The position numbers were made by a program, and so were the translations under genes. Positions 4,841 through 20,374 of a stretch of 20,571 bases of DNA are shown here, in pieces; position 1 is the stretch's first letter; each line of letters opens with the position of its first letter. The notes under the pieces were generated by a model, which did no database searches, had not been told where the DNA came from, and was given only the letters and a program-made list of their open reading frames with translations. The DNA comes from a virus. Where the stretch lies: positions 1-20,571 of the IMG/VR virus record IMGVR_UViG_3300028384_001243. One strand, written 5' to 3'.

Positions 4841-5198
4841 AGTAAAACCAAATATAGATGTTCCACATAACGGAATCGCTGGTGCACATTCATTGGTAAA
4901 CTCAGTTATCAATGATTTTTTCATTTATTCACACTCAGTAGATTCTATCTCGTTGAATGATGAATTATTTAGTTTAACATTGAATAATAAGAAATTTGTA
5001 TATCAAGAAGTCAAAGTTGACTCTAACAAGGATTACATTAATATTTATTTACAAGGTGTTCTTAAAGATAAGAGTACTTATTCCGCCGTGGAGAGTGGTA
5101 ATAATATAGTTATAGAGTTTAATGAAAGTATTACATTACGACCTGAAGATATCGTGGCAAACGATTTTGAAGTTCGTGGAAAGATAGTAAGTAGATAA
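4833..5198 (+). CDS. Small structural protein with related C-terminal beta domain
   Basis: I do not recognise this 121-residue protein. Residues 11-50 are hydrophobic and mixed (HNGIAGAHSLVNSVINDFFI), with no clear signal peptide or membrane segment. Residues 68-121 (YINIYLQGVLKDKSTYSAV, then NIVIEFNESITL and DFEVRGKIV) can be laid over the second half of the preceding protein and the gp15 C-terminus, with Gln replacing the usual Asn before Gly. The start ATG lies inside the previous gene (8-base overlap). The TAA overlaps the ATG of the giant fibre gene (TAATG). Its place between tail-completion and fibre genes suggests a structural or connector role. Confidence 0.65.
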   Translation: MAKVKPNIDVPHNGIAGAHSLVNSVINDFFIYSHSVDSISLNDELFSLTLNNKKFVYQEVKVDSNKDYINIYLQGVLKDKSTYSAVESGNNIVIEFNESITLRPEDIVANDFEVRGKIVSR

Positions 5199-8100
5199 TG
5201 GCAACACTTATTCAAAGTAAACAGATTGAAGGAATTGTAACGGCCTCAGTTATAGAGGGAACGTTTCAGGTAAGTGGTTCACAAATTATCACAGGTTCAC
5301 AAGAACTCTCAGGTGATATTACCGCATCCAATATACGAGTAACTGGTAACTATTATGGTGATGGTTCACAACTAACATTTGGTGGAACTGGAATCGTAAG
5401 TGGTTCAGAACAAATTAGTATTTCACTAACAAGTGGATATTCTGCATTTTCTTCTTCATTAGATTCACGATTAGTATCTTTAGAAAACGCAACAGATGAT
5501 ACTGGTTCAGATTCACAAACACTTTCTATAAGTGGTGACCAACTGACAATCACCAGTGGAAATACCGTAACTATTCCTACTGGTAGTGGAGTATCCTCGT
5601 ATACAGATTTAATAAATGTACCATCTTCAATTGTAAGTTCATCTGCACAAATAACGGCATTAGGATTTGTATCATCAAGTGGTGATAATACACCAGATGG
5701 AACGGTTAGTTCATCAGCACAGATAACTGCATTAGGATTCATTAGTTCAAGTACAGATGCACAAACACTAAGTTTAAATCAAGTAACAAGAATATTATCT
5801 ATTTCAAATGGTAATAGTGTTGATTTAACACCTGTTGTTGGTGGTGCAAGTGACATTAGTGGTTCTATTTGGTCAACGGGTTCAAATTGGTATTATGTAT
5901 CAGCTGACTTGAAAGTGACTGGTTCATTCCACGCAACATCACTTACTGGTTCGATAGATTATTCAAACTTAACAAACGTTCCAACATTAGTTAGTGGTTC
6001 AAGTCAAATCACTGCGTTTGGATTCGTAAGTGAAAGTACGGACATAAGTTCACTAAACTCATACACATCTTCAACAGACGGAAGATTAACAAACATAGAG
6101 GCAGCTACAGGCTCATACTTAACATCAAGTGGGTCAGTAGACTTTACAGACATAACATCAGTTCCAAGTGGATTGGTAAGTGGTTCTATTCAAGTATTAG
6201 GTGGAACTGATATAGTAAGTAGTTCAGCTCAAATCACGGCATTAGGGTTCGTGAGTGAAAGTGGTGATAGTACTCCTGCAGGTACGATTAGTGGTTCTGC
6301 ACAGATTACTGCACTTGGATTCATTAGTTCATCACACACAGATATTACTTCATTAAATACATTTACATCATCTATCCAAACAGAAGTTGATGGATTATCT
6401 GCAGCAACGTCATCTTACTTAACTTCAAGTGGTTCAGTTGATTATACAGATTTAACTTCAGTACCGAGTGGTATCGTTAGTGGTTCATCACAAATAACTT
6501 CATTAGGATTCATTTCTGAAAGTACAACAATACCCGCGGGTACTATTAGTGGTTCTGCTCAAATTACTTCGTTAGGGTTCATAAGTTCGTCTCATACTGA
6601 CATAACTTCATTAAACTCTTTCACACAATCAGCAGACCAACGTCTTGATTCATTAGAAGGAGTAAGTGGTTCATATCTAACATCATCAGGTTCAGTATCA
6701 TATGACGATATAACTGGTAAACCAACGTTAATCAGTCAATCAGGACAAGTAAACTATAATGAATTATTAAACAAACCAGCTTTCATTGGTGGAACGAATG
6801 TAACAATCACTTCCGCGAGTAATGGTATAACAATTAATTCTACTGGTGGTGGAAGTGGTTCGGGTGACATAACACACCTAAACGCATTTACTCAATCAGC
6901 TAATACAAGATTCACACAACTATCAGCTGATACCGCATCACAAGCTCAAAGATTAGATTCTTTGGAGGCAGAGAGTGGGTCATACTTAACTTCTTTAGAT
7001 AGTGGTATAGTAAGTTCATCTGCACAGATTACTGCATTAGGATTTGTTTCTGAGAGTTCTGATTTAACATCTCTTAATTCGTTTACATCATCTATCCAAA
7101 CAGAAGTTGATGGACTAAGTTCACAAACTTCATCTTACTTAACATCAACTGGTTCAGTTGATTATACAGACATCACTTCTGTTCCAAGTGGAATTGTTAG
7201 TTCATCTGCACAAATCACATCTTTAGGATTTGTTTCTGAGAGTAGTGCAGACCTTACATCATTAAATACATTTACTGCATCAAACGCTAATACTTCATTG
7301 AACTCATACACTTCATCCTTAAATGCGGGTGTAAGATTATTTAGTATTGAAAATACAACCCAATCTTTAGATTCAAGGTTAGATAGTGTTGAAGCAGCAA
7401 CATCATCATATTTAACATCATCAGGTTCAGTAGACTTCACGGATATCACATCAGTACCTTCGGGTATACTAAGTAGTTCTGAACAATTGCCTAATGGATT
7501 GGTAAGTGGTTCGTCACAAATTACTGCATTAGGATTTATCTCTGAAAGTACACCTTTACCAACTGGAGTAGTTAGTGGTTCATCACAATTAACTTCATCT
7601 TACGATGCTAGATATCAACAAAGTGGTTCATCGATTCCATTCAATGGAAATAGAATTGTATCACAAGAGAAATTACCAACGATGTTTACATCATCGTTCA
7701 ATCCTGGTACAAGTGGCTCGGTAGTTGATTTCTTAAATGCAATATTCTATCCAAACACAGAACCATCAATCACAAGTGAAAACCAAACAATCGCGGAGTT
7801 TAGTGCAAGTGGGGCTTCCATATTTACAATAGAGGCAACTGACCCAGAAGGGCAATCATTAACATTTGGAACGTCATCAACATATACAGATGACTTGGTT
7901 CGAGTATCTTCTGCAGGTGTTGTAACTCTAAACGCAACTGCAACTTCTGCATCATTCAATACTGATTTAGTAGGAGGTTCACATGGACACACTTTTGTAG
8001 CTCGTGTTGAAGATACATTTGGTGCAGAAGTAACAAAAGATATTACAATATTTGTAACTCCAAACGCGGCTCCTCAATTTAGAGAAACATCCGTAGTTGG

Positions 8101-10594
8101 TAACGTAATCACAACTGTAAGTTCAAACTTAAATGAAAATAGTGCAAATGGTACGTTAGTAAAAAGAGTATTCTTTACAGACGCTGAAGGTGATTCAATC
8201 ACAATTGATTCATCATCAATCTCACCTGCAGGTGGTTCTACTCACTTTACTATTACAAAATACTCAACTTATGTTGACATAGAACAAAATACAGGTTCAT
8301 TAGATTATGAAACTTATCCTGTTTATACATTTAGTTTAAGTGCATCTGATGAACATTATCAAAATTCGGATGACTCTGATTCTATTGTAACTTTACCAGT
8401 TTCAATTAGTGTTGTAGATAACGTACATCCTACAATCAATAACCAAACATTATCAAGTATAAATGAGAATTCATCAAACGGAGCAACTGTTGGAACTATT
8501 TCAGCAACTGACTCTGAAGGTGACGCTATAACATTCTCACAATTTACACTATACAAATTAGAATTAGATAACGTAGATGTATCAAGTGGTTCTTATGGTG
8601 GAACTTCACAGGCAACAGACCCACATGAAAATCCTTTCAATATGGATTCAAGTGGTAACGTAACAAGAAAGAATGGTGTATTCTTAAACTCTGACTTGAT
8701 AAACGAATATCAATACACAGTAAGAGTGAGAGATTCATTCAACACTGCATCTAACGAAGCTATCGTAACAATACCAATTGATGACGATACACCAGCAACG
8801 TTGACAGATAACTGGTCAGCTGGGCCATATATCAAAGAATCTCAAAATAGTGGTTCTACTATTAGAACAACTGATTATGGTTCAACTGTTGCGGATTATA
8901 ACTCAAATCAGAGTGGTACATTCACTTCATCAAATCCAGCTATCGCAATTGCATCCAATGGTAACTTATCATTAGCAGTTGACTTAAGTGGTTCGGTAAC
9001 ACAAAGTGGTGATACTATTAGTTCAACTATTACATTTACAAACACGTTCGGTACAACTACTACTGACGCTTTAGTTGTGAATGTAGTTGATAATGTTGCA
9101 CCAACTATTTCATTCACAAATCAAACCGCTAACTTCAATACCAACTTAGGAACAAGTGGTACAACTATGGTTAGTATGAGTGTGAGTGATACGGAAGGAG
9201 ATACTCCATTCTCTGCATCATTGAGTGGTTCTGATTTAGAATTAATTTACTCAAACGCTGATTCTTCATCAATAGGATTACACTTAACAACAGACGCAAT
9301 CGCAAGAGAATATTTTTATAGTGTAACAATAACAGACCAATTTGGTAGTTCAAGAACATATAGTGATAGAAGTTTCACAGTAGCACAAGCAGACACGGGT
9401 ACTTTAGGTGGTGATACTACATCATACATCATTGAGTCAGCAGTAAGTGGGGCATTGATTAGAGAAAGTTCAAATGGTAGAACTGGTAATCAAGCTCAAC
9501 TGACAGTATCATACTCACCTTCGTATGGGTCACCATCAGTAGCTTCGTTTACTTCATCATTAGACGAAACAATAGCTATTAACTCAAGTGGTCAATTATC
9601 ACTATTAGTAGACTTAAGTGGTTCGGCAACTTCATCGGGTGATACTATCACTCCAACGATTACATTCCAAGACCAATATGGTAACTTGGGTAGTGGTTCA
9701 ATCACCATCAATGTAGCTGCAAATCAAGCACCAAACGCAACATTCACAGACCAATCAGGAAACTTTGAAACTGATTTTGCAACAAGTGGTACAACTATGG
9801 TTAGTATGAGTATTTCAGATGATGAATCTGATACACCATTCTCTGCATCTATTAGTGGTTCTAACTTGGAGTTAGTATACTCATCAGCTGATTCATCTTC
9901 AGTTGGTATCCACGCGACTTCCGATTTAACCGCAAGAACTCATACATACTCAGTAACGGTATTTGACCAATTCGGTAAATCAAGAACTTATACTGATAGA
10001 ACATTTACGGTAGCTCAATCAGCTGATTATGGTAAAGTTTATATCTATCGTTCAAGTTATGGTTCAGATGCTGGATTGAGTTCTAACTATAATGCACTTA
10101 TGGGAGCATCAACATTAACATCGGATGTTCCACCAGAAGTAACCGCATATACTGCAAACAATACATCACCATATAGATTGATTAGTTCGTCATTAGGTGA
10201 ATCAACATTGGTATTGGCAGGTGGTGAACAAGCTGACTTAGTTGCAACGTTAAGTGGGTCTGATTTAGATACAATTATTAGTGAGTCTAATCCATTAACA
10301 ATGGGTAACTCAGCTGAACAATATATAATCATAGCTCCATCTGGTTCTGATATGATTGGTATACCAACATCGATGACTGATGGATTCGGAGACAATACCG
10401 CTGGAAGATACGTAATGGCAGTAAAAGCTGATGGTGGTTCGTGGGGTCAAGAAGGTTCTACAATTCACTTATTAGATACAAGTGGTTCAGTTAACGGATA
10501 CGATAAACATTTTGTAATAGGTAGAACGGGACACAACTCGGCAGCGAGTGTAGAACTTCGTATAATCGAAGCCTCAGGTTCTTTACCAAGTTAA
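5198..10594 (+). CDS. Giant modular fibre/adhesin protein with SSAQ repeats and cadherin-like domains
   Basis: This 1798-residue, Ser/Thr/Gly-rich protein is probably a long tail fibre or virion adhesin. Residues 1-60 (MATLIQSKQIEGIVTASV, then VSGSQ) form a likely attachment region. Residues about 148-790 hold ten copies of an SSAQIT-A-LGF-S-S repeat, usually alternating with SGSYLTSSGSVDYTDITSVPSG and 'SLNSFT' linkers. Residues about 850-1610 hold five domains marked by TDPEGQS, TDAEGDS, TDSEGDA, SDTEGDT and SDDESDT, typical of cadherin-like or related Ig-fold repeats that may bind calcium. The last two lie in a tandem duplication. Residues about 1611-1798 form a unique C-terminal region that I cannot assign. 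There is no S74 domain and no signal peptide. The start is coupled to the previous stop by TAATG. Long minus-strand frames here are by-products of the biased, repeated composition. Confidence 0.85.
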   Translation: MATLIQSKQIEGIVTASVIEGTFQVSGSQIITGSQELSGDITASNIRVTGNYYGDGSQLTFGGTGIVSGSEQISISLTSGYSAFSSSLDSRLVSLENATDDTGSDSQTLSISGDQLTITSGNTVTIPTGSGVSSYTDLINVPSSIVSSSAQITALGFVSSSGDNTPDGTVSSSAQITALGFISSSTDAQTLSLNQVTRILSISNGNSVDLTPVVGGASDISGSIWSTGSNWYYVSADLKVTGSFHATSLTGSIDYSNLTNVPTLVSGSSQITAFGFVSESTDISSLNSYTSSTDGRLTNIEAATGSYLTSSGSVDFTDITSVPSGLVSGSIQVLGGTDIVSSSAQITALGFVSESGDSTPAGTISGSAQITALGFISSSHTDITSLNTFTSSIQTEVDGLSAATSSYLTSSGSVDYTDLTSVPSGIVSGSSQITSLGFISESTTIPAGTISGSAQITSLGFISSSHTDITSLNSFTQSADQRLDSLEGVSGSYLTSSGSVSYDDITGKPTLISQSGQVNYNELLNKPAFIGGTNVTITSASNGITINSTGGGSGSGDITHLNAFTQSANTRFTQLSADTASQAQRLDSLEAESGSYLTSLDSGIVSSSAQITALGFVSESSDLTSLNSFTSSIQTEVDGLSSQTSSYLTSTGSVDYTDITSVPSGIVSSSAQITSLGFVSESSADLTSLNTFTASNANTSLNSYTSSLNAGVRLFSIENTTQSLDSRLDSVEAATSSYLTSSGSVDFTDITSVPSGILSSSEQLPNGLVSGSSQITALGFISESTPLPTGVVSGSSQLTSSYDARYQQSGSSIPFNGNRIVSQEKLPTMFTSSFNPGTSGSVVDFLNAIFYPNTEPSITSENQTIAEFSASGASIFTIEATDPEGQSLTFGTSSTYTDDLVRVSSAGVVTLNATATSASFNTDLVGGSHGHTFVARVEDTFGAEVTKDITIFVTPNAAPQFRETSVVGNVITTVSSNLNENSANGTLVKRVFFTDAEGDSITIDSSSISPAGGSTHFTITKYSTYVDIEQNTGSLDYETYPVYTFSLSASDEHYQNSDDSDSIVTLPVSISVVDNVHPTINNQTLSSINENSSNGATVGTISATDSEGDAITFSQFTLYKLELDNVDVSSGSYGGTSQATDPHENPFNMDSSGNVTRKNGVFLNSDLINEYQYTVRVRDSFNTASNEAIVTIPIDDDTPATLTDNWSAGPYIKESQNSGSTIRTTDYGSTVADYNSNQSGTFTSSNPAIAIASNGNLSLAVDLSGSVTQSGDTISSTITFTNTFGTTTTDALVVNVVDNVAPTISFTNQTANFNTNLGTSGTTMVSMSVSDTEGDTPFSASLSGSDLELIYSNADSSSIGLHLTTDAIAREYFYSVTITDQFGSSRTYSDRSFTVAQADTGTLGGDTTSYIIESAVSGALIRESSNGRTGNQAQLTVSYSPSYGSPSVASFTSSLDETIAINSSGQLSLLVDLSGSATSSGDTITPTITFQDQYGNLGSGSITINVAANQAPNATFTDQSGNFETDFATSGTTMVSMSISDDESDTPFSASISGSNLELVYSSADSSSVGIHATSDLTARTHTYSVTVFDQFGKSRTYTDRTFTVAQSADYGKVYIYRSSYGSDAGLSSNYNALMGASTLTSDVPPEVTAYTANNTSPYRLISSSLGESTLVLAGGEQADLVATLSGSDLDTIISESNPLTMGNSAEQYIIIAPSGSDMIGIPTSMTDGFGDNTAGRYVMAVKADGGSWGQEGSTIHLLDTSGSVNGYDKHFVIGRTGHNSAASVELRIIEASGSLPS
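5620..7560 (+). repeat. SSAQIT-type protein-coding repeat array in the giant fibre gene
   Basis: Ten degenerate copies of a unit containing [SG]S[SA]QIT[AS][LF]GF[VI]S are spread through this stretch, most within longer units of about 40-60 residues that also include SYLTSSGSVDYTDITSVPSG. Spacing is irregular but always in frame. Part of the array is a larger duplication: 6362-6394 and 7082-7114 are identical over 33 bases, and similarity continues for well over 100 bases at the same 720-base offset. These are coding repeats, not intergenic ones. Confidence 0.85.
8823..10030 (+). repeat. Tandem duplication of a ~200-residue Ig/cadherin-like pair
   Basis: Unit 1 (about 8823-9394) and unit 2 (about 9417-10030) encode the same order of elements: I-ES...SG..IR, then LS-L-VDLSGS-T-SGDTI--TITF, then TSGTTMVSMS-SD, PFSAS-SGS-LEL-YS-ADSSS-G, and D-FG-SRTY-DR-FTVAQ. 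The 30 bases at 9151-9180 are identical to 9781-9810, exactly 630 bases apart. The copies have diverged elsewhere, with small in-frame insertions. Confidence 0.85.
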
Positions 10595-11242: not shown

Positions 11243-13546
11243 ATGGCTCAAACTATTAAACATAGAAGAGGTAAACTGGAAAGTGTTAAAGATATAAGCC
11301 CGATTAATGGTGAGTTAATCATTGCATCGGGGTCTGACTTATCTGTACACCAAGAAGGTTTACTGTTTGTTGGGGTTGAAGGAAATGTATTAACTCCCTC
11401 AAACAAAATATTGACAGGTTCCGCCACATTAGACGTAACTGGAAACGATTACGACCACTCTATTGATGGTGTTCCTTATTATGAAACCGATGCTAAAACA
11501 CTAACAATTTTAGGACACGGAGGTAATACAAATATAGAATTTACAACCAATTCATTAGACCTAAGAGGTTCAGGTATTATATCTTCATCAGCTCAGGTAT
11601 CTGATTTAGCTGGTGTAAATAATAACTCAATTACTTTCACTGCTGGTGACGGTCTTGAATTTTCAAGTGGTGATGGTGTATTCACGTTGAACCAATCTTC
11701 AGATGAAACATTCAACATCCAACTTGATTTAGCTTCAGACGGTGGTCTTGAATTTAACAGTAATGAAGTAAGAATTAAATTAGATGGTAGTACACTTGAT
11801 AGAACTTCAAGTGGTATTAAATTATCTGACGAAAACTTAAATGCATCATTAAACGCATTCACAGGTTCAACTAACTTAACCATTGCAGGTGAAACAGTAG
11901 CTATCAACGGTGGTACTGTAACTTTAGCAGCAATGACTAATGGTAGTGGTATCCTATCTGGGTCAGTTGGTTTAGGTGCAGTAGCAACTGATGCGGCATT
12001 TGACCAAACATCTGATTCAATCGTATTCTTTGATGCAACTGATAGTTCTGTAAGAAGAGATTCAGTAGGTGATTTCTTAACTGCAATCGCGGGTACTAAC
12101 TTAACTGTATCTTCAGGTCAATTAGTAGCAAACGCTGGTGATATTACTGGTGTAACTGCAGGAAGTGGTATCACAGGTGGTGGTAACACAGGTACTGTTG
12201 TAGTAGCATTAGATTCTGGTTCTATCGCTGGTGATGGTTTAACTGCTAAATCAAATGGTAGTGGATTGGATATCAATGCATCTGATTTCACAGGTGATGG
12301 TTTAGAAGTAAACTCATCTGATATTAGAGTTAAATTGGATGGTTCAACTATCGATAGAAGTTCAGATGGTATTAAATTATCTGATGAAAACTTAAACACT
12401 TCATTGAACTCATTTACTGCATCAGCAGGTGATGTTGTGACTTTAGATGTTGGTATCGATAACGGTAATGTTCTTCAAGCAGATGCAAATGTAGCTGATG
12501 ATGATTTCTTAAGAATCGCTGGTACACAAGTTGAAGGTAGAACCGCATCACAAGTTAAATCTGATATTGGTTTAAGTAATGTAGAAAACACTGCTATTTC
12601 AAGCTTCGCTGGTTCAGCTAACATTACAACTGTTGGAACAATTGGAACTGGTACATGGCAAGGTACTGTAATTGATAAAGCATATTTGGATGACGAAGTA
12701 CTAAACACTTCGTTGAACTCATTTACTGCATCAAATGCTAATACATCATTGAACTCATTTACTGCATCAGCAGGTGATGTTGTGACTTTAGATGTAGGTA
12801 TTGGTAACAACAACGTTCTTCAAGCAACTACTGGTATTGCAGATGATGATTTCTTGAGAGTTAATGGTACTAAGATTGAAGGTAGAAGTGCATCAGAACT
12901 ACTTAGTGATATTGGTGCACAAGCATCACTTTCAAGTACAAGTATTACTATTGGTGATTCTTCAATCTCCCTTGGTGGTACAGATACTACTTTGACTGGA
13001 TTGACTGATATTGATATGACTGCAGCTGACCACACAATCTTTAATGGAGTGGGAGCTAACACACTTACTCTTGGTGCATCAACTACTGATATCGTAATCG
13101 CTGGTAACTTAACTGTTAGTGGTACACGTACAGTTGTTAACACTACAACTGTTCAGTATGATGATAACATCCTTGAATTGAATGGTGGTGGTTCTAACAA
13201 TGGTGGTATCCATGTAAAAGACGCTGAAGGTGCAACCAACGTTACTGGTTCCTTAATTTGGGATACTGGTGCTGACTATTGGTCTGCAGGGCCTCTTGGA
13301 AGTGAAAAGGAAATCACAAGATATAATACAGATGCAACAACTAATAACGTACAGAAAGTTAACGCTTCTAACTTATTAGTAGATTCAGCTATATCTGATG
13401 ATGGTACTGCAGTAACAATCAGTTCTGACTTAATCATTAGTGGATTGACTGCTTCTCAAATCGTTGTAACTAACGGTTCAAAACAGTTAACATCTTCTAC
13501 TGATATCTCATCCCTTACATTGACAATGGATGGTGGAGAATTCTAA
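11243..13546 (+). CDS. Tail fibre protein with IK-RRG N-terminal anchor
   Basis: This 767-residue protein starts with MAQTIKHRRG...INGELIIA. That is the short N-terminal anchor common to many phage fibres (the 'IQLRRGT...L..GEIG' type, as in the Mtd N-terminal domain family). The middle is made of repeated beta modules: 'AGDGLEFSSGDGV', two near-identical blocks RIKLDGST-DR-S-GIKLSDENLN-SLN-FT, and two blocks GDVVTLDVGI-N-NVLQA...ADDDFLR. Residues about 618-700 carry the GNLTVSGTRTVVNTTTV...DDNILELNGG...GSLIWDTGADYWSAG module also found in the next fibre. The protein ends in a short SSTDISSLTLTMDGGEF tail without an S74 domain. The ribosome site is AAAAAGGAAAA, and a terminator follows. Confidence 0.85.
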   Translation: MAQTIKHRRGKLESVKDISPINGELIIASGSDLSVHQEGLLFVGVEGNVLTPSNKILTGSATLDVTGNDYDHSIDGVPYYETDAKTLTILGHGGNTNIEFTTNSLDLRGSGIISSSAQVSDLAGVNNNSITFTAGDGLEFSSGDGVFTLNQSSDETFNIQLDLASDGGLEFNSNEVRIKLDGSTLDRTSSGIKLSDENLNASLNAFTGSTNLTIAGETVAINGGTVTLAAMTNGSGILSGSVGLGAVATDAAFDQTSDSIVFFDATDSSVRRDSVGDFLTAIAGTNLTVSSGQLVANAGDITGVTAGSGITGGGNTGTVVVALDSGSIAGDGLTAKSNGSGLDINASDFTGDGLEVNSSDIRVKLDGSTIDRSSDGIKLSDENLNTSLNSFTASAGDVVTLDVGIDNGNVLQADANVADDDFLRIAGTQVEGRTASQVKSDIGLSNVENTAISSFAGSANITTVGTIGTGTWQGTVIDKAYLDDEVLNTSLNSFTASNANTSLNSFTASAGDVVTLDVGIGNNNVLQATTGIADDDFLRVNGTKIEGRSASELLSDIGAQASLSSTSITIGDSSISLGGTDTTLTGLTDIDMTAADHTIFNGVGANTLTLGASTTDIVIAGNLTVSGTRTVVNTTTVQYDDNILELNGGGSNNGGIHVKDAEGATNVTGSLIWDTGADYWSAGPLGSEKEITRYNTDATTNNVQKVNASNLLVDSAISDDGTAVTISSDLIISGLTASQIVVTNGSKQLTSSTDISSLTLTMDGGEF

Positions 13547-13687: not shown

Positions 13688-16600
13688 ATGGCAGCTATTA
13701 TACAATTGAGGAGAGGTTCATCTCCTTCATCACTTTCTTATGGAGAACCGTACATCAACGATGATTCAGCATCCTTGGTTGTCGGTTTATCTGGCTCAAA
13801 CGATATTATAACACTTGCAAAGTTAGAACAAAAAAACTTTGGTAACCTTTGGATTGACGGAGACTTAACTGCGTCAAATATTTCTGCAAGTGGAGACATA
13901 AGAATTGGAGGACAACTGTTTCTTGGAGATGCTGCTGAAGATGCCGTTGTAATTCAAGGTTCTTTATCTTCTTCACTTATACCTGAGAGTGGTAGTACGT
14001 ATAATATAGGTTCATCTACAAAACCTTGGAATAATCTTCACATTGGACAAATATTTGCAACAACAACCGTTGTAACAAGTTCGGCTCAAATCACTGCATT
14101 TGGATTCATATCTTCGTCAACTGATATTTCTTCAATAAATAACTTCACACAATCAGCTGACCAAAGATTAGACTCACTTGAAAGTGATAGTGGGTCATAT
14201 CTAACTTCATCAGGTTCGGTATCCTATGATGATATAACAAGTAAACCAACACTACTTAGTGGTTCTGCACAGATTACGGCATTTGGATTTACTTCTTCAT
14301 CAACTGATATCTCATCCTTAAATACATTTACTTCATCAGCTGACCAAAGGTTAGATTCTTTGGAAGGTGATAGTGGTTCTTATCTAACATCACTTGATGG
14401 TGGTATCGTAAGTTCATCTGCACAGATTACGGCATTTGGATTTACTTCTTCATCAGCTGATATTAGTTCATTGAATTCATTTACACAATCATTCAATACT
14501 GCAATCACACTTAGTTCAGATGATGTAACAATTCTTGGTAACTTAACAGTACAAGGAACAGAAACAACATTAAATACTCAAACTTTACAAGTTGAGGATA
14601 AAAATATTTTAGTAGCAAGTGGAGCCGCTGATTCTGCCGCTGCTAACGGAGCTGGTCTCACAATCGATGGGGCTAATAAATCATTACAATGGAATCATAC
14701 AGATTCACAGTTTAGATTTGACGCTGATGTTTCAGCTTCAGCTTTCTATGGTGATGGTTCTAATCTTACAAACGTAGGAGCTCCTCTTACTTCATTAAAT
14801 GCATTTACCGCATCAAATGGAAACGATTCATTAAACGCATTCACATCATCAAATAGTAATGATTCACTAAACGCAGCAACATCTTCATATCTAACTTCTT
14901 CGGGTTCGGTTGATTATAGTGACATAACTTCAGTACCAAGTGGTATTGTAAGTTCATCTGCACAGATTACTGCATTTGGGTTCGTATCATCAAGTGGTGG
15001 AAACTTAACATCATTAAACGCATTTACACAGTCAGCTGACCAAAGATTAGATTCATTAGAATCAGATAGTGGTTCTTACTTAACATCATCAGGTTCAGTA
15101 GACTTTACAGATATAACTTCAGTACCAAGTGGATTATTAAGTTCATCTGCACAAATCACTTCATTTGGATTCATTTCTGAATCATCTGAAAATACATCAT
15201 TAAATGCATATACCGCATCAAATGATATTAATATATCTAACATACATTCAATTACATCTTCATTTGACCAAAGATTAGATTCACTTGAAGGTGAGAGTGG
15301 TTCTTACTTAACATCATCAGGTTCAGTAGATTATTCTGATATCACTTCACTACCTACATTAGTAAGTCAATCAGACCAAGTTAATTATAATGACCTACTT
15401 AATAAACCAGCTTTCATTGGTGGTGTAAATGTAACTATCACATCAGCAAGTAATGGTATAACGATAAACGCAACATCAGGTTCTGGTGGAGCTTCAGTTG
15501 CACACTTAAACTCATTTACACAATCCGCTAACGTAAGATTTGGTCAATTATCAACAGAAACTGGTTCACAAAATCAGAGATTAGACTCACTTGAAAGTGA
15601 AAGTGGTTCTTACCTTACTACATTAGATAGTGGAATTGTAAGTACATCTGCTCAAATCACTACATTTGGATTTATTAGTGAGAGTACATCACTTACATCA
15701 CTAAATTCATATACTGCATCAAACGACATTAATATAACCAATATTCATTCAACAACTTCTTCATTAGAACAAAGAGTTGGACAAATAGAATTAAATACTG
15801 GTTCATATGGTGGTGGTGGAACGGACTTAACACAACTGAATACATTTACAGGTTCAGCAAACCAAAGATTAGATTCTTTAGAATCTGAAAGTGGTTCTTA
15901 TGTACTTACTAGCGGGACTCAAACAATAGGTGGTAATAAGACCTTTAGTGGACTAACTACCATTGAAGGTGATTTGACATTAAATGAAAATATTGTACAT
16001 AACGGAGATAACAACACTAGATTCAGTTTTGGAACTGATAGTATCACTCTACGAGCAGGAACTTATAGCTTTTTTAATATATCTGCAACAGAAATTGTAG
16101 CAAATAGTCAAGGAAACGATATAGATTTCAGAGTACGAGGTGATAATGATAACTACACATTATACGTAGATGCTGGTAATGATAGAGTTCATATAGGTGA
16201 ATCCACAGGTGGAACTCAAAAATTAAACATTAAAGGAGCAGTATCTGCATCATCATATTATGGTGATGGTTCTAACCTTACAAATGTAGGAGCAGACCTA
16301 ACTTCACTAAACTCATTTACTGCATCTAATGGTAATGATTCATTGAACTCAATTACATCTTCATTTGACCAAAGATTAGATTCACTTGAAGGAGAGAGTG
16401 GTTCATACAACACAATTACTGCATTCCATACATTTACTGCATCCCTTGGAACAGTATCTACATTCGCGGTAACACAATCGGTACAAGATGATGATACACT
16501 TATTCCAACTGCAAGAGCGGTATCCGCATCGATTGCAGAAGTTGATACGGCTAATTTAACATCACTAAATTCATTTACCGCATCAAATGGAAATGATTCT

Positions 16601-17233
16601 CTGAATACATTCACAGGTAGTAATGGTAATACATCAATCAATTCATTTACTTCATCATTCAATACCGCACTTACTTTAGATTCTTCTAATGTAACTGTAC
16701 TTGGTAACTTAACAGTACAAGGAACAGAAACGATATTGAATACACAAACACTTAACATTGAAGATAAGAACTTATTAATCGCAAGTGGTGCAGCTGACTC
16801 TTCAGCAGCAAATGGTGGTGGTATTACAATTGATGGAGCTAACGCAACTATGACTTGGAATCATAGTGATTCGAGATTAGACTTTAATAAGTCATTACAC
16901 ATTACAGGTGATATCGAAGCAACGGGTGACGTTGTTGCATTTGCATCATCGGATGAAAGATTAAAAGATAACATTCAACCTATCGAAAACCCACTTGAAA
17001 AACTATCACAAATAAGTGGTAAAACTTTTGATTGGAATGAAGAGAAACAGAATATTTATAAAGGAAGAGATTACGGAGTTATAGCCCAAGAAATAGAAGC
17101 AGTATTACCAGAACTTGTAAATACAAGAGAAGATACTGGATACAAGGCAGTAAAATACGATAAACTTGTTCCACTATTGATTGAATCTATAAAAGAACTT
17201 CAAAAACAAATAGAAGAACTAAAATCTAAATAG
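13688..17233 (+). CDS. Long tail fibre with C-terminal peptidase S74 chaperone domain
   Basis: This 1181-residue protein starts with MAAIIQLRRGSSPSSLSYGEPYI, the fibre anchor motif. It then has six SSAQITAFGF-type repeats with QSADQRLDSLE-DSGSYLTSSGSVDYTDIT spacers (residues about 130-670). It carries two copies of a GNLTVQGTET-LNTQTL-EDKN module (about 265-345 and 990-1070) and two YGDGSNLTNVGA links. Residues 1088-1181 are an S74 intramolecular chaperone: SDERLKDNIQPIENPLEKL, then FDWNE, YGVIAQEIEAVLPE, YKAVKYDKLVPLLIES and a short coiled coil. In this family, Ser (here Ser1088) and Lys five residues later (Lys1093) cut the chain before the Ser after trimer folding, so the mature fibre would be 1087 residues. 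The gene lies 11 bases before a second S74 fibre gene. Confidence 0.93.
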   Translation: MAAIIQLRRGSSPSSLSYGEPYINDDSASLVVGLSGSNDIITLAKLEQKNFGNLWIDGDLTASNISASGDIRIGGQLFLGDAAEDAVVIQGSLSSSLIPESGSTYNIGSSTKPWNNLHIGQIFATTTVVTSSAQITAFGFISSSTDISSINNFTQSADQRLDSLESDSGSYLTSSGSVSYDDITSKPTLLSGSAQITAFGFTSSSTDISSLNTFTSSADQRLDSLEGDSGSYLTSLDGGIVSSSAQITAFGFTSSSADISSLNSFTQSFNTAITLSSDDVTILGNLTVQGTETTLNTQTLQVEDKNILVASGAADSAAANGAGLTIDGANKSLQWNHTDSQFRFDADVSASAFYGDGSNLTNVGAPLTSLNAFTASNGNDSLNAFTSSNSNDSLNAATSSYLTSSGSVDYSDITSVPSGIVSSSAQITAFGFVSSSGGNLTSLNAFTQSADQRLDSLESDSGSYLTSSGSVDFTDITSVPSGLLSSSAQITSFGFISESSENTSLNAYTASNDINISNIHSITSSFDQRLDSLEGESGSYLTSSGSVDYSDITSLPTLVSQSDQVNYNDLLNKPAFIGGVNVTITSASNGITINATSGSGGASVAHLNSFTQSANVRFGQLSTETGSQNQRLDSLESESGSYLTTLDSGIVSTSAQITTFGFISESTSLTSLNSYTASNDINITNIHSTTSSLEQRVGQIELNTGSYGGGGTDLTQLNTFTGSANQRLDSLESESGSYVLTSGTQTIGGNKTFSGLTTIEGDLTLNENIVHNGDNNTRFSFGTDSITLRAGTYSFFNISATEIVANSQGNDIDFRVRGDNDNYTLYVDAGNDRVHIGESTGGTQKLNIKGAVSASSYYGDGSNLTNVGADLTSLNSFTASNGNDSLNSITSSFDQRLDSLEGESGSYNTITAFHTFTASLGTVSTFAVTQSVQDDDTLIPTARAVSASIAEVDTANLTSLNSFTASNGNDSLNTFTGSNGNTSINSFTSSFNTALTLDSSNVTVLGNLTVQGTETILNTQTLNIEDKNLLIASGAADSSAANGGGITIDGANATMTWNHSDSRLDFNKSLHITGDIEATGDVVAFASSDERLKDNIQPIENPLEKLSQISGKTFDWNEEKQNIYKGRDYGVIAQEIEAVLPELVNTREDTGYKAVKYDKLVPLLIESIKELQKQIEELKSK
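14083..15690 (+). repeat. SSAQIT-type repeat array in the first S74 fibre gene
   Basis: Six coding repeats read S[AS]AQIT[ATS]FGF[ITV]S[SE]S, separated by spacers with ADQRLDSLE-DSGSYLTSSGSV or TSLNAFTASN. They are the same family as the ten copies in the giant fibre gene. At about 15290-15690 a module of roughly 100 residues (S-SGSVDYSDIT, VSQS-QVNYN-LLNKPAFIGG-NVTITSASNG and onward) matches 6655-7060 of that gene. It includes an identical 20-base string (6773-6792 and 15404-15423). Confidence 0.85.
14460..16900 (+). repeat. Duplicated GNLTVQGTET fibre module
   Basis: The blocks at about 14470-14725 and 16636-16890 encode the same roughly 85 residues: SFNTA-TL-S, then VT-LGNLTVQGTET-LNTQTL, EDKN-L-ASGAADS-AANG and TIDGAN...WNH-DS. 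The bases at 14534-14565 and 16700-16731 are identical (32 bases, 2166 apart). The second copy leads straight into the S74 domain. Confidence 0.85.
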
Positions 17234-17244
17234 AATTTTAGAAC

Positions 17245-19533
17245 ATGGCACAAACAATTAAATTAAAAAGGTCTGCAACTCAAGGTAAAGTACCAAGTAC
17301 TGGTAATTTATCTTTAGGTGAAATTGCTATTAACACTTATGATGGTAGGGTATTCCTTAAGAAGAACGATGGTTCTGATTCCATACAACACGTTGTAGTT
17401 ACTGATTCGATAACAACAGGTTCAATCACAATTTTTGGTAATATTAGTGGTTCATGGAATGGTCATGTTATTGATAAACAATATTTAGATGATGAGATTT
17501 TAAACACCTCATTAAACACATTTACTCAATCAGCTATTACAATTACTGGTAATGGTACGAGTGGTAGTGTAGCCGTATTTAATGACACACACGAAGTAAC
17601 AAATGCGACAATAACTTCAGTTGATGGTGGTACAATCATAACACACGATAATGATACAAATATTATATTCACAGTTTCTGGTTCAAACGGTGAATTACTT
17701 ACAATCACAGATTCAAATACGGGTAATCTATTAGAAGTAAATGATGCTTCTGGTATTGATGTATTTACGGTATCTGCAGTTGGTGATGTATCTGCATCTG
17801 GTGCAATTACGGCATCTGACATTACAGGACTTACTTCACTAAATGTAAATGGTAATATTTATGGTACTTCATTTAATGGAACAGGTTTAGTAAGTGGTTC
17901 AGTGCTTAGACCAGATGGTGATGGTATTGTATCAGAATCAGCACAAATAGATGCTCAATCTGCTACTAATCCTGCTGCCATATATGATAATAGTGGAACA
18001 CCTACTCTAAGAAGTGGTATTACACAAGGTGAATTACAAACCGCGATAGGAGTTGATGCTGCTGGAACGAAAAACTCTACTGATGTAACACTTGGTGGTT
18101 CTTACGATTATATTACTGCTGGTGGAACTGATAACCAAACACTTACATTAGGACAAATTGATTTAACAACCGATGTTACTGGTGTTCTTCCATCTGCTAA
18201 TTTAGATACTGATACGGCACACTTAAGTGGAACACAAACATTTACAGGTACAAAAACATTCAACGCAAGTGGAAACTCAATCATCATTGGTGATACTTTA
18301 AGAATCGATGAAGATGGTAGTGGATTGAGAATGACAAATGTTGGTGCTTTCGAAAGTGCTAGTGAAGGTTTCCATATTTTCTCAAATGGAAATTTAAGAT
18401 TATCAACCAATGGTAGTGGGGCAGGTACAACTGCAGTAATATTTGACCAGACAACAAAAGACGCAACCTTTGAAGGAAATATACTCGCTGGTAACATTAG
18501 TGGTTCTTCATTTAATGGAACAGGTTTAGTTAGTGGTTCATCCTCAGAAGTTAAAACGTTTTTATCAATAACTTCAGCAGATATTTCCGATGTAGATGCA
18601 TTTTCACAAAGTGGTAATTATAGTGGATTAAGAGCACAAGCAACTACTGCAGGTGATGTTGGATTAGGAAATGTTACCAATGAGAGTAAATCTACTATGT
18701 TTACAGACGCTGCTCTCACGGGTACACCAACCGCACCTACGGCCGATACAGACGATAATACTACTCAAATAGCTACAACTGAATTCGTAAAAGCTCAAAA
18801 TTACCTTACAAGTGCTGATGGTGGTAACGCAACAACATTAGATGGTATTGATTCAAGTGGATTCATTAGAGCCAACGCCGATGACGATGTATCTGCTCAC
18901 ACCGAATGGCAAGATAGTAAAGAAATAAGACTTGGTTCGGGTAACGATGCTCAACTATATCACAATGGAACAAATATGTTCCTTGCAAATGGTACTGGTA
19001 ATCTTATTATCAGAAACAACACAGATAATGGTAATGTAGTTTTACAATCAGATAATGGTTCAGGTGGTGTAGCTACTTATCTTTACCTTGATGGTACAAA
19101 TGAAAAAGTACAGATTGATAAACCAACAGATATATCTGATACAACTCAATCAACAAGTAAAACGACTGGGGCATTAGTTGTAGATGGTGGTGTTGGTATT
19201 GCAAAAACACTTAATGTTGGTGAAGATGTTGTAGCATTTGCATCATCGGATGAAAGATATAAGGATAATGTTACCCCAATCGAAAATCCAAACGAAAAAC
19301 TAAAACAAATTGGTGGATATACTTTTGATTGGAATGATAAACATGAAGTATTTAAAGGACAACATGATGTTGGTGTAATTGCACAAGAGATAGAAAAAGT
19401 TTTACCAGAAATTGTAGAAACAAGAGAAAGTGGATACAAGGCAGTAAAATACGAAAAGATAGTAGCTTTACTAATCGAATCTAACAAAGAACTTCTGAAA
19501 AGAATCGAAGATTTAGAATCAAAAATTAATTAA
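17245..19533 (+). CDS. Second tail fibre with C-terminal peptidase S74 chaperone domain
   Basis: This 762-residue protein opens with the clearest fibre anchor here: MAQTIKLKRSATQGKVPSTG, then LSLGEIAINTYDGRVFLKKNDG. The shaft holds known marine phage fibre modules: two SFNGTGLVSGS links, LSGTQTFTGTKTFN, TPTAPTADTDDNTTQIATTEFVKA (about 495-515), LDGIDSSGFIRANADDDVSA (about 532-550), LYHNGTNMFLANGTGNLIIRN, and TTGALVVDGGVGIAKTLNVGED. Residues 668-762 are an S74 domain (SDERYKDNVTPIENP, FDWND, VGVIAQEIEKVLPEIVE, YKAVKYEKIVALLIES, coiled coil). The predicted dyad is Ser668/Lys673, giving a 667-residue mature fibre. It lacks SSAQIT repeats apart from one remnant (SESAQIDAQ). There is no obvious ribosome site; it starts 11 bases after the previous stop and is probably translated by reinitiation. 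Confidence 0.93.
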   Translation: MAQTIKLKRSATQGKVPSTGNLSLGEIAINTYDGRVFLKKNDGSDSIQHVVVTDSITTGSITIFGNISGSWNGHVIDKQYLDDEILNTSLNTFTQSAITITGNGTSGSVAVFNDTHEVTNATITSVDGGTIITHDNDTNIIFTVSGSNGELLTITDSNTGNLLEVNDASGIDVFTVSAVGDVSASGAITASDITGLTSLNVNGNIYGTSFNGTGLVSGSVLRPDGDGIVSESAQIDAQSATNPAAIYDNSGTPTLRSGITQGELQTAIGVDAAGTKNSTDVTLGGSYDYITAGGTDNQTLTLGQIDLTTDVTGVLPSANLDTDTAHLSGTQTFTGTKTFNASGNSIIIGDTLRIDEDGSGLRMTNVGAFESASEGFHIFSNGNLRLSTNGSGAGTTAVIFDQTTKDATFEGNILAGNISGSSFNGTGLVSGSSSEVKTFLSITSADISDVDAFSQSGNYSGLRAQATTAGDVGLGNVTNESKSTMFTDAALTGTPTAPTADTDDNTTQIATTEFVKAQNYLTSADGGNATTLDGIDSSGFIRANADDDVSAHTEWQDSKEIRLGSGNDAQLYHNGTNMFLANGTGNLIIRNNTDNGNVVLQSDNGSGGVATYLYLDGTNEKVQIDKPTDISDTTQSTSKTTGALVVDGGVGIAKTLNVGEDVVAFASSDERYKDNVTPIENPNEKLKQIGGYTFDWNDKHEVFKGQHDVGVIAQEIEKVLPEIVETRESGYKAVKYEKIVALLIESNKELLKRIEDLESKIN

Positions 19534-19541
19534 ATCGTATT

Positions 19542-19643
19542 ATGAGTGTCCAAATCACAAAGGTATCAGACACACAAATACAACTCAATCCTCAAATTGT
19601 AAAGGATGAACTTCAGTTGTACTATGATGTTAATAGAGGATAA
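19542..19643 (+). pseudogene. 33-codon miniature paralogue of the LamG gene
   Basis: An open frame of 33 codons fits exactly between the second S74 fibre gene and the LamG-type gene, and overlaps the latter by one base (TAATG). Its product starts MSVQITKVSDTQIQLNPQIV and ends LQLYYDVNRG. The first 20 residues match the start of the next protein (MGVRIQKSVGTQLEIGPSIV) at 9 positions. Its DELQLYYDVN lines up with DDVLFFFDAT there. The rest of the LamG fold is missing. It is either the remnant of a duplicated LamG gene after an internal deletion, or a small real peptide that keeps only the N-terminal anchor. The open frame and tidy overlap suggest it may still be translated, perhaps to couple expression of the LamG gene. 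Confidence 0.6.
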
Positions 19644-20374
19644 TGGGAGTAAGAATACAAAAATCAGTTGGAACTCAATTAGAGATTGGCCCTTCAATAG
19701 TTGGGTACAATGGTACTGGTAATTGGGATGATGATGTTTTATTTTTCTTTGATGCAACAAATCCTAAATCATATACTGGTAGTGGTAATACTTGGACAGA
19801 TTTAAGTTCGAGTGGAAATAATGCTACTATAAATGGTGCAACCTTTTCAACTGACCACATAAGTTTTGATGGTTCAAATGATTATCTATCATGGGGTTCA
19901 AACTTCTCTATCAATGTGCACAATGGATTTACATTTTGGGTAGTTTGGGATTTACCATCTCAATCAAGTGGTGCTTGGAATTATTTCTTATACCATAACC
20001 CTTCAGGAAATCATAAATATGAATTTGGTCAATATGGGACAAATGCAGATACATTCCATTACAAAGATAATATCTCTTATGCTGGTACTGCTATGACAAC
20101 TTCAATGGGTAGTGGATATGCAACTTACGCATTTGGAGCTAATTCAGATGGTCGTTCTTATACGAGTGTGAATGGTGCACCAGCAACTGTAAAGAATCCA
20201 GGTTCGAATTCATATTGGGCAACTACACCAACTACACCTATGGTATTTAATGAATTGTTCAGAGGTGGTGGTACTGCACTTGCCGCAAATGTAAAAATGT
20301 TAATTTTTTATAATAGAGGACTAACAAACGAAGAGTTGTATCAAAACAATAGGGTTTCAAAATCAAGAAGATAA
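19643..20374 (+). CDS. LamG/concanavalin-like lectin domain protein
   Basis: This 243-residue protein has a short N-terminal anchor (residues 1-28), then a LamG-type jelly roll. The signs are FFFDATNPKSYTGSGNTWTDL (35-55), NNATINGATF (59-68), SFDGSNDYLSW (74-84), a central FTFWVVWD strand, and the closing MLIFYNRGLTNEELYQN near the C-terminus. This is the classic frame of the laminin-G-like lectins in phage structural genes ('DA-NP-SY-GSGTTW-DLSGN-N-GTL ... FDGSNDY ... YNRALT-EEI-QN'). Such domains bind glycans, so a role in receptor binding or virion decoration is likely. It overlaps its neighbours by single TAATG junctions on both sides. There is no signal peptide, and the length suits a single domain. 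Confidence 0.88.
   Translation: MGVRIQKSVGTQLEIGPSIVGYNGTGNWDDDVLFFFDATNPKSYTGSGNTWTDLSSSGNNATINGATFSTDHISFDGSNDYLSWGSNFSINVHNGFTFWVVWDLPSQSSGAWNYFLYHNPSGNHKYEFGQYGTNADTFHYKDNISYAGTAMTTSMGSGYATYAFGANSDGRSYTSVNGAPATVKNPGSNSYWATTPTTPMVFNELFRGGGTALAANVKMLIFYNRGLTNEELYQNNRVSKSRR

Follow-up and report, generated by a model that had tools for sequence, protein, structure and literature searches.

What is a reading frame of only 33 codons doing between a phage tail-fibre gene and a lectin-like gene, and where did it come from? The window, the whole stretch of DNA analysed here, is a viral contig of 20,571 bases that encodes a T4-type major head protein (PHROG 138; closest named phages Microcystis phage Mel-JY01 at 53.7% and Flavobacterium immuto phages at 49.3%). 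On its + strand, an ATG at 19542 opens a frame that runs to a TAA at 19643 and encodes MSVQITKVSDTQIQLNPQIVKDELQLYYDVNRG; the stop overlaps the ATG of the next gene as TAATG (19641-19645). A sequence-only reading had described this frame and junction correctly, and had taken the frame for a copy of the following LamG gene that retained only its N-terminal part, perhaps as an anchor peptide. We conclude instead that it is very probably an ordinary gene remnant: a LamG gene from a separate lineage (LamG1), once full length, of which an in-frame deletion of the middle left only the two ends. The features concerned are the following.

17245..19533, + strand: tail-fibre-like gene with a C-terminal Peptidase_S74 chaperone (PF13884, E 1.4e-15; PHROG tail fibre families), upstream border of the slot
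19542..19643, + strand: 33-codon frame, very probably what remains of a LamG1 gene after in-frame loss of its middle; both ends match LamG1
19542..19634, + strand: segment (codons 1-31, MSVQ...YYDVN) probably derived from the LamG1 5' end; 73/93 nt and 22/31 aa against L248 LamG1
19630..19635, + strand: TTAATA, putative deletion join (microhomology); TTAATA/AATA repeats in L248 and L221
19632..19645, + strand: AATAGAGGATAATG, probably derived from the LamG1 3' end (N-R-G-stop and the overlapping ATG); 14/14 nt against L259
19643..20374, + strand: LamG2, full-length LamG-type gene, 243 aa, 67% identical to the LamG gene of L002
20374..20571, + strand: start of the conserved MYDVYYTT... gene, downstream border of the slot; the complete gene in L248 encodes 331 aa

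The MYDVYYTT gene allowed this slot to be followed through related contigs (given L numbers here). Its relatives are encoded in 360 IMG/VR stretches, and 80 contigs were read for slot content; in 71 of these 80 loci the slot is empty, the fibre gene being followed directly by the MYDVYYTT gene. Searches for this gene (complete in L248, 991-1986) in Pfam, PHROGs, NCBIfam and PDB sequences gave nothing convincing, and the gene's sole match in the phage collection is in an uncultured phage of 484 kb (LR756508, 36.8%). Where the slot (19534-20373 in the window; loci L173-L252) is occupied, it holds LamG1 in four loci, with a LamG1-type 3' end also seen at the contig edge of L209; 553-aa proteins beginning MASLKNTT or MATLKNTQ in L208 and L250; a 273-aa gene in L207; and, in L196, a 156-aa gene behind the end of a LamG-like gene.

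Full-length LamG1 genes (256-257 aa) lie after the fibre gene and just upstream of the MYDVYYTT gene in the IMG/VR contigs L248, L254, L255, L221 and L259, of which L254, L255 and L259 were added by a search with the LamG1 N-terminus. The order fibre-LamG1-MYDVYYTT is complete in L221, L223, L239, L248 and L259; the L254 and L255 contigs start near the fibre's end, and the order visible there is LamG1-MYDVYYTT. LamG1 of L221, L223, L239 and L248 is 257 aa long and occupies the slot up to a TAATG overlap with the next start codon. The check proposed with the sequence-only reading thus came out in its favour on this point, in that relatives do hold a full-length LamG gene where the window has the short frame. 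The LamG1 products of L248 and L254 match PF13385 (Laminin_G_3) above the cut-off, the domain covering residues 99-243 in L248; this complete jelly-roll lectin domain is absent from the 33-mer, which gave no match in a Pfam search. The LamG1 N-terminus found no relative when GTDB genomes were scanned with it, and tblastn with the 33-mer in INPHARED and in genomes G001-G003 gave no matches.

Both ends of the short frame are homologous to the ends of LamG1. At the N-terminus, residues 1-31 match L248 LamG1 at 22 positions (71%, E 3.6e-16); the 33-mer as a whole is 70% identical to the start of L255 LamG1 (E 2.5e-16), and it also matches that of L254 (E 8.4e-15). Its alignment scores are 122-123 against LamG1 genes, 44 against its own neighbour LamG2 and at most 42 against other LamG genes outside the LamG1 lineage. 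Against a general HMM built from 75 LamG N-termini the 33-mer scores about as well as the best shuffles, because the LamG1 lineage is absent from that HMM. At the other end, the last codons (AAT AGA GG-stop, then TG) are those of every LamG1 gene. The LamG1 C-terminus is always ...KFNRG-stop, encoded by AATAGAGGNTAATG with the next gene's ATG included; the end sequence is AATAGAGGTTAATG in L248, L254, L255 and L221, and the window's AATAGAGGATAATG is identical to the L259 end. This 3' match is short (14 nt), though specific: AATAGAGG-N-stop closes 11 of the 6603 frames in the loci, all of them LamG1 (these include overlapping records of the same contigs and represent about five distinct sequences), and a LamG1-type 3' end is expected 0.00 times in the shuffled window.

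The short frame is 672 nt (224 codons) shorter than LamG1 of L248, L221 and L259 and 669 nt shorter than that of L254 and L255, in each case a multiple of three. It also sits where LamG1 sits, after the fibre gene and upstream of the MYDVYYTT gene, but with LamG2 intervening. The claim that only an N-terminal part was retained was therefore wrong: besides the start of the LamG1 gene, its stop and the two or three codons preceding it were kept, which points to an internal in-frame deletion, and the match at both ends makes the frame, in all probability, LamG1 minus 224 codons. The remnant is clearly recognisable because relatives keep the whole gene at the same place; more generally, short frames in such arrays become explicable when both of their ends are compared and not the start alone.

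In-frame remnants that arise by deletion between short repeats keep both ends of the gene, lose the middle and carry a small repeat at the join; the window's frame is alike in all three and differs in no notable way. The microhomology at the join is 4-6 nt: TTAATA occurs at the 5' breakpoint in L248 and at the 3' end in L221, and within L248 AATA is shared. The exact break cannot be placed inside TTAATA, and breakpoints and microhomology both shift with the homologue used as proxy. The join lies inside a short direct repeat, AATA, which would extend to TTAATA had the lost 3' end resembled that of L221; this position suggests replication slippage or short-repeat recombination. Because LamG1 and LamG2 are found together intact in this slot in none of the fetched loci, the state before the deletion is a reconstruction, and we infer the direction of change. 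A full LamG1 gene of about 257 codons would have stood between the fibre gene and LamG2, joined to the latter by a TAATG overlap; recombination or slippage between repeats at codons 30-31 and about three codons before the stop would have removed 224 codons in frame (relative to L248) and left a 33-codon frame with the old start and the old stop/ATG overlap. The frame would then persist by handing ribosomes on to LamG2, or its loss of sequence may simply be recent, and not because the peptide works.

A role for the remnant of this kind would add to the deletion rather than offer another origin. We consider it plausible from the layout of the junction, though on balance unlikely, that the frame is now selected as a translational leader coupling LamG2 to the fibre operon. 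In favour of such a role, the deletion spared the start, an in-frame passage and the AGAGG-AUA-AUG end: being in frame, it left the TAATG overlap usable, AGAGG (19635-19639) lies three bases before the ATG, and in every LamG1 homologue the following gene is preceded by AATAGAGGNTAATG. Against it, RNA folding of the junction is no better than that of shuffles (z 0.01). The overlap is also ordinary in these phages, since LamG arrays occur in many loci and in 24 of 77 LamG genes the start codon lies in a TAATG or TGATG overlap; in L004, for example, tandem LamG genes share the same overlap at the 4681 junction (CATAATGAG). That a gutted lectin gene has been kept for a functional 33-residue product, or as a coupling leader by which the neighbouring lectin's expression is tuned, seems to us rather improbable; if true, one deletion would have turned a lectin gene into a regulatory mini-cistron. 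The frame is most likely a remnant in which the start and the stop/AUG overlap outlasted the deletion.

We hold it very unlikely that the 33-mer itself is a retained working micropeptide, such as an anchor or partner peptide for LamG proteins on the fibre. The frame is open and its residues 16-30 are nearly unchanged, and across the 30 retained codons compared with L248, dN is 0.16 and dS 1.04, much as between full-length LamG1 pairs. These values fit either constraint or a recent deletion, and the latter explains the low dN equally well. Moreover, no second short version was found, either among 9705 short frames scanned around relatives (about 260 loci; best match of another short frame to LamG1 N-termini, E 4e-4) or by a scan of 2.9 million viral contigs with one exact DNA pattern, so there is no sign among these of a conserved small protein. 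The AlphaFold model of LamG1 (70 sequences; pLDDT 76.8, pTM 0.81) resembles viral LamG/concanavalin-A-like proteins, and Foldseek against the PDB gives the same broad lectin fold. In this model residues 24-29 form, with high confidence, a strand of the lectin sandwich, the prediction for residues 1-10 is weak and nothing marks a separate anchor domain, so that the isolated 33-mer would be a fragment. With a single strand of the predicted sandwich at the end of the retained segment, the proposed anchor is unsupported; a functional peptide is possible but without support.

An assembly artefact, with a chimeric or collapsed contig at the join, has about as slim a chance. The window is one metagenomic record with a short repeat at the join, and the slot varies among relatives, so that reads of a phage with full LamG1 could have been joined at the repeat to those of a phage without it. 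Such a join would be expected to give an exact frame with an intact old stop/start overlap only about one time in three.

That the following LamG gene was duplicated and the copy then reduced to its N-terminus is more doubtful still, and already contradicted. The resemblance behind this proposal is real: 9 of the first 20 residues are identical between the two products, and their BLOSUM62 local score of 44 exceeds the best of 2000 shuffles (39). DELQLYYDV does align with DDVLFFFDA as the sequence-only reading had it (DELQLYYDVN with DDVLFFFDAT), though only across an 8-residue gap. Yet the 33-mer is far nearer to LamG1 of other phages, as the scores above indicate and as does nucleotide identity in its 5' segment (73/93 against L248 LamG1, 54/93 against the following LamG gene), and it bears the LamG1 3' end. 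On sequence grounds it is no recent copy of its neighbour: the apparent source is LamG1, which stands alone in this slot in relatives. What stood of the earlier proposal is a deletion in a receptor-binding-type locus, strongly supported by full LamG1 in the same slot of relatives; what fell is a preceding duplication of the neighbour. Chance resemblance of a random short frame, for which its shortness might speak, is contradicted by E values of about 1e-16 to LamG1 together with an independent 3' match at the syntenic place, and can be practically dismissed.

LamG2 itself is only about 24-26% identical to LamG1 (64/265 for L248). It falls below the Pfam reporting limit used, and its assignment to LamG rests on the identity to L002, a sub-threshold match of its L004 homologue to Laminin_G_3 and alignment with the LamG set. 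Its relatives at 66-67% identity, in L002, L004 and L006, adjoin genes resembling ssb and uvsX/recA (names that reflect our reading of the sequences, not a family search). In L004 (3959-5334), as in L002 and L006, the LamG2-lineage genes lie just upstream of these genes and outside any fibre cluster. The lineage therefore occurs at different genome locations, and, LamG1 and LamG2 being separate lineages, two LamG lineages have met in this slot. The locus thus gives a legible picture of turnover beside a phage fibre gene, with the slot empty, occupied by LamG or by other genes, or holding a deleted LamG and a LamG of a second lineage. There is no sign of a new system: the frame is a gene remnant of an ordinary kind, well accounted for, in a fibre-end slot that varies among relatives.

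The LamG1 genes of these uncultured phages remain the closest comparison. They are like the 33-mer in slot (where the contig shows both borders), first 31 residues, last codons and stop/ATG overlap, and differ in being full length with the MYDVYYTT gene directly next, whereas in the window LamG2 follows. Literature searches on gene remnants and on LamG genes of phage fibres turned up nothing of direct relevance, and the main text of a 2020 study of Baltic Sea Flavobacterium phages (PMC7077304) contains no mention of virion mass spectrometry of LamG proteins, nor of immuto. Overlap-joined tandem LamG genes are ordinary in these phages. Flavobacterium phage vB_FspM_immuto (MW353175), whose major head protein is 49% identical to that of the window, carries a tandem of LamG "structural protein" genes (220-221) immediately behind a tail-fibre-like gene, as in the window. 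The first of them overlaps the stop of the fibre-like gene (TAATG), and the start motif DGLVLNLDA...SYPGSG is common to both; the LamG sequences are distantly related, and the immuto genes seen are full length, unlike the 33-codon frame.

Of the three fibre-like genes recognised in the window (starting at 11243, 13688 and 17245), two terminate in a Peptidase_S74 chaperone. The Peptidase_S74 domains of the neighbouring genes at 13688-17233 and 17245-19533 are about 73% identical to each other, which suggests domain exchange or duplication inside the fibre cluster. Further upstream, 5198-10594 encodes a fibre-like protein of 1798 aa with a cadherin domain match (PF00028, E 2.5e-9) and many repeated SSSAQITALGF-type motifs.
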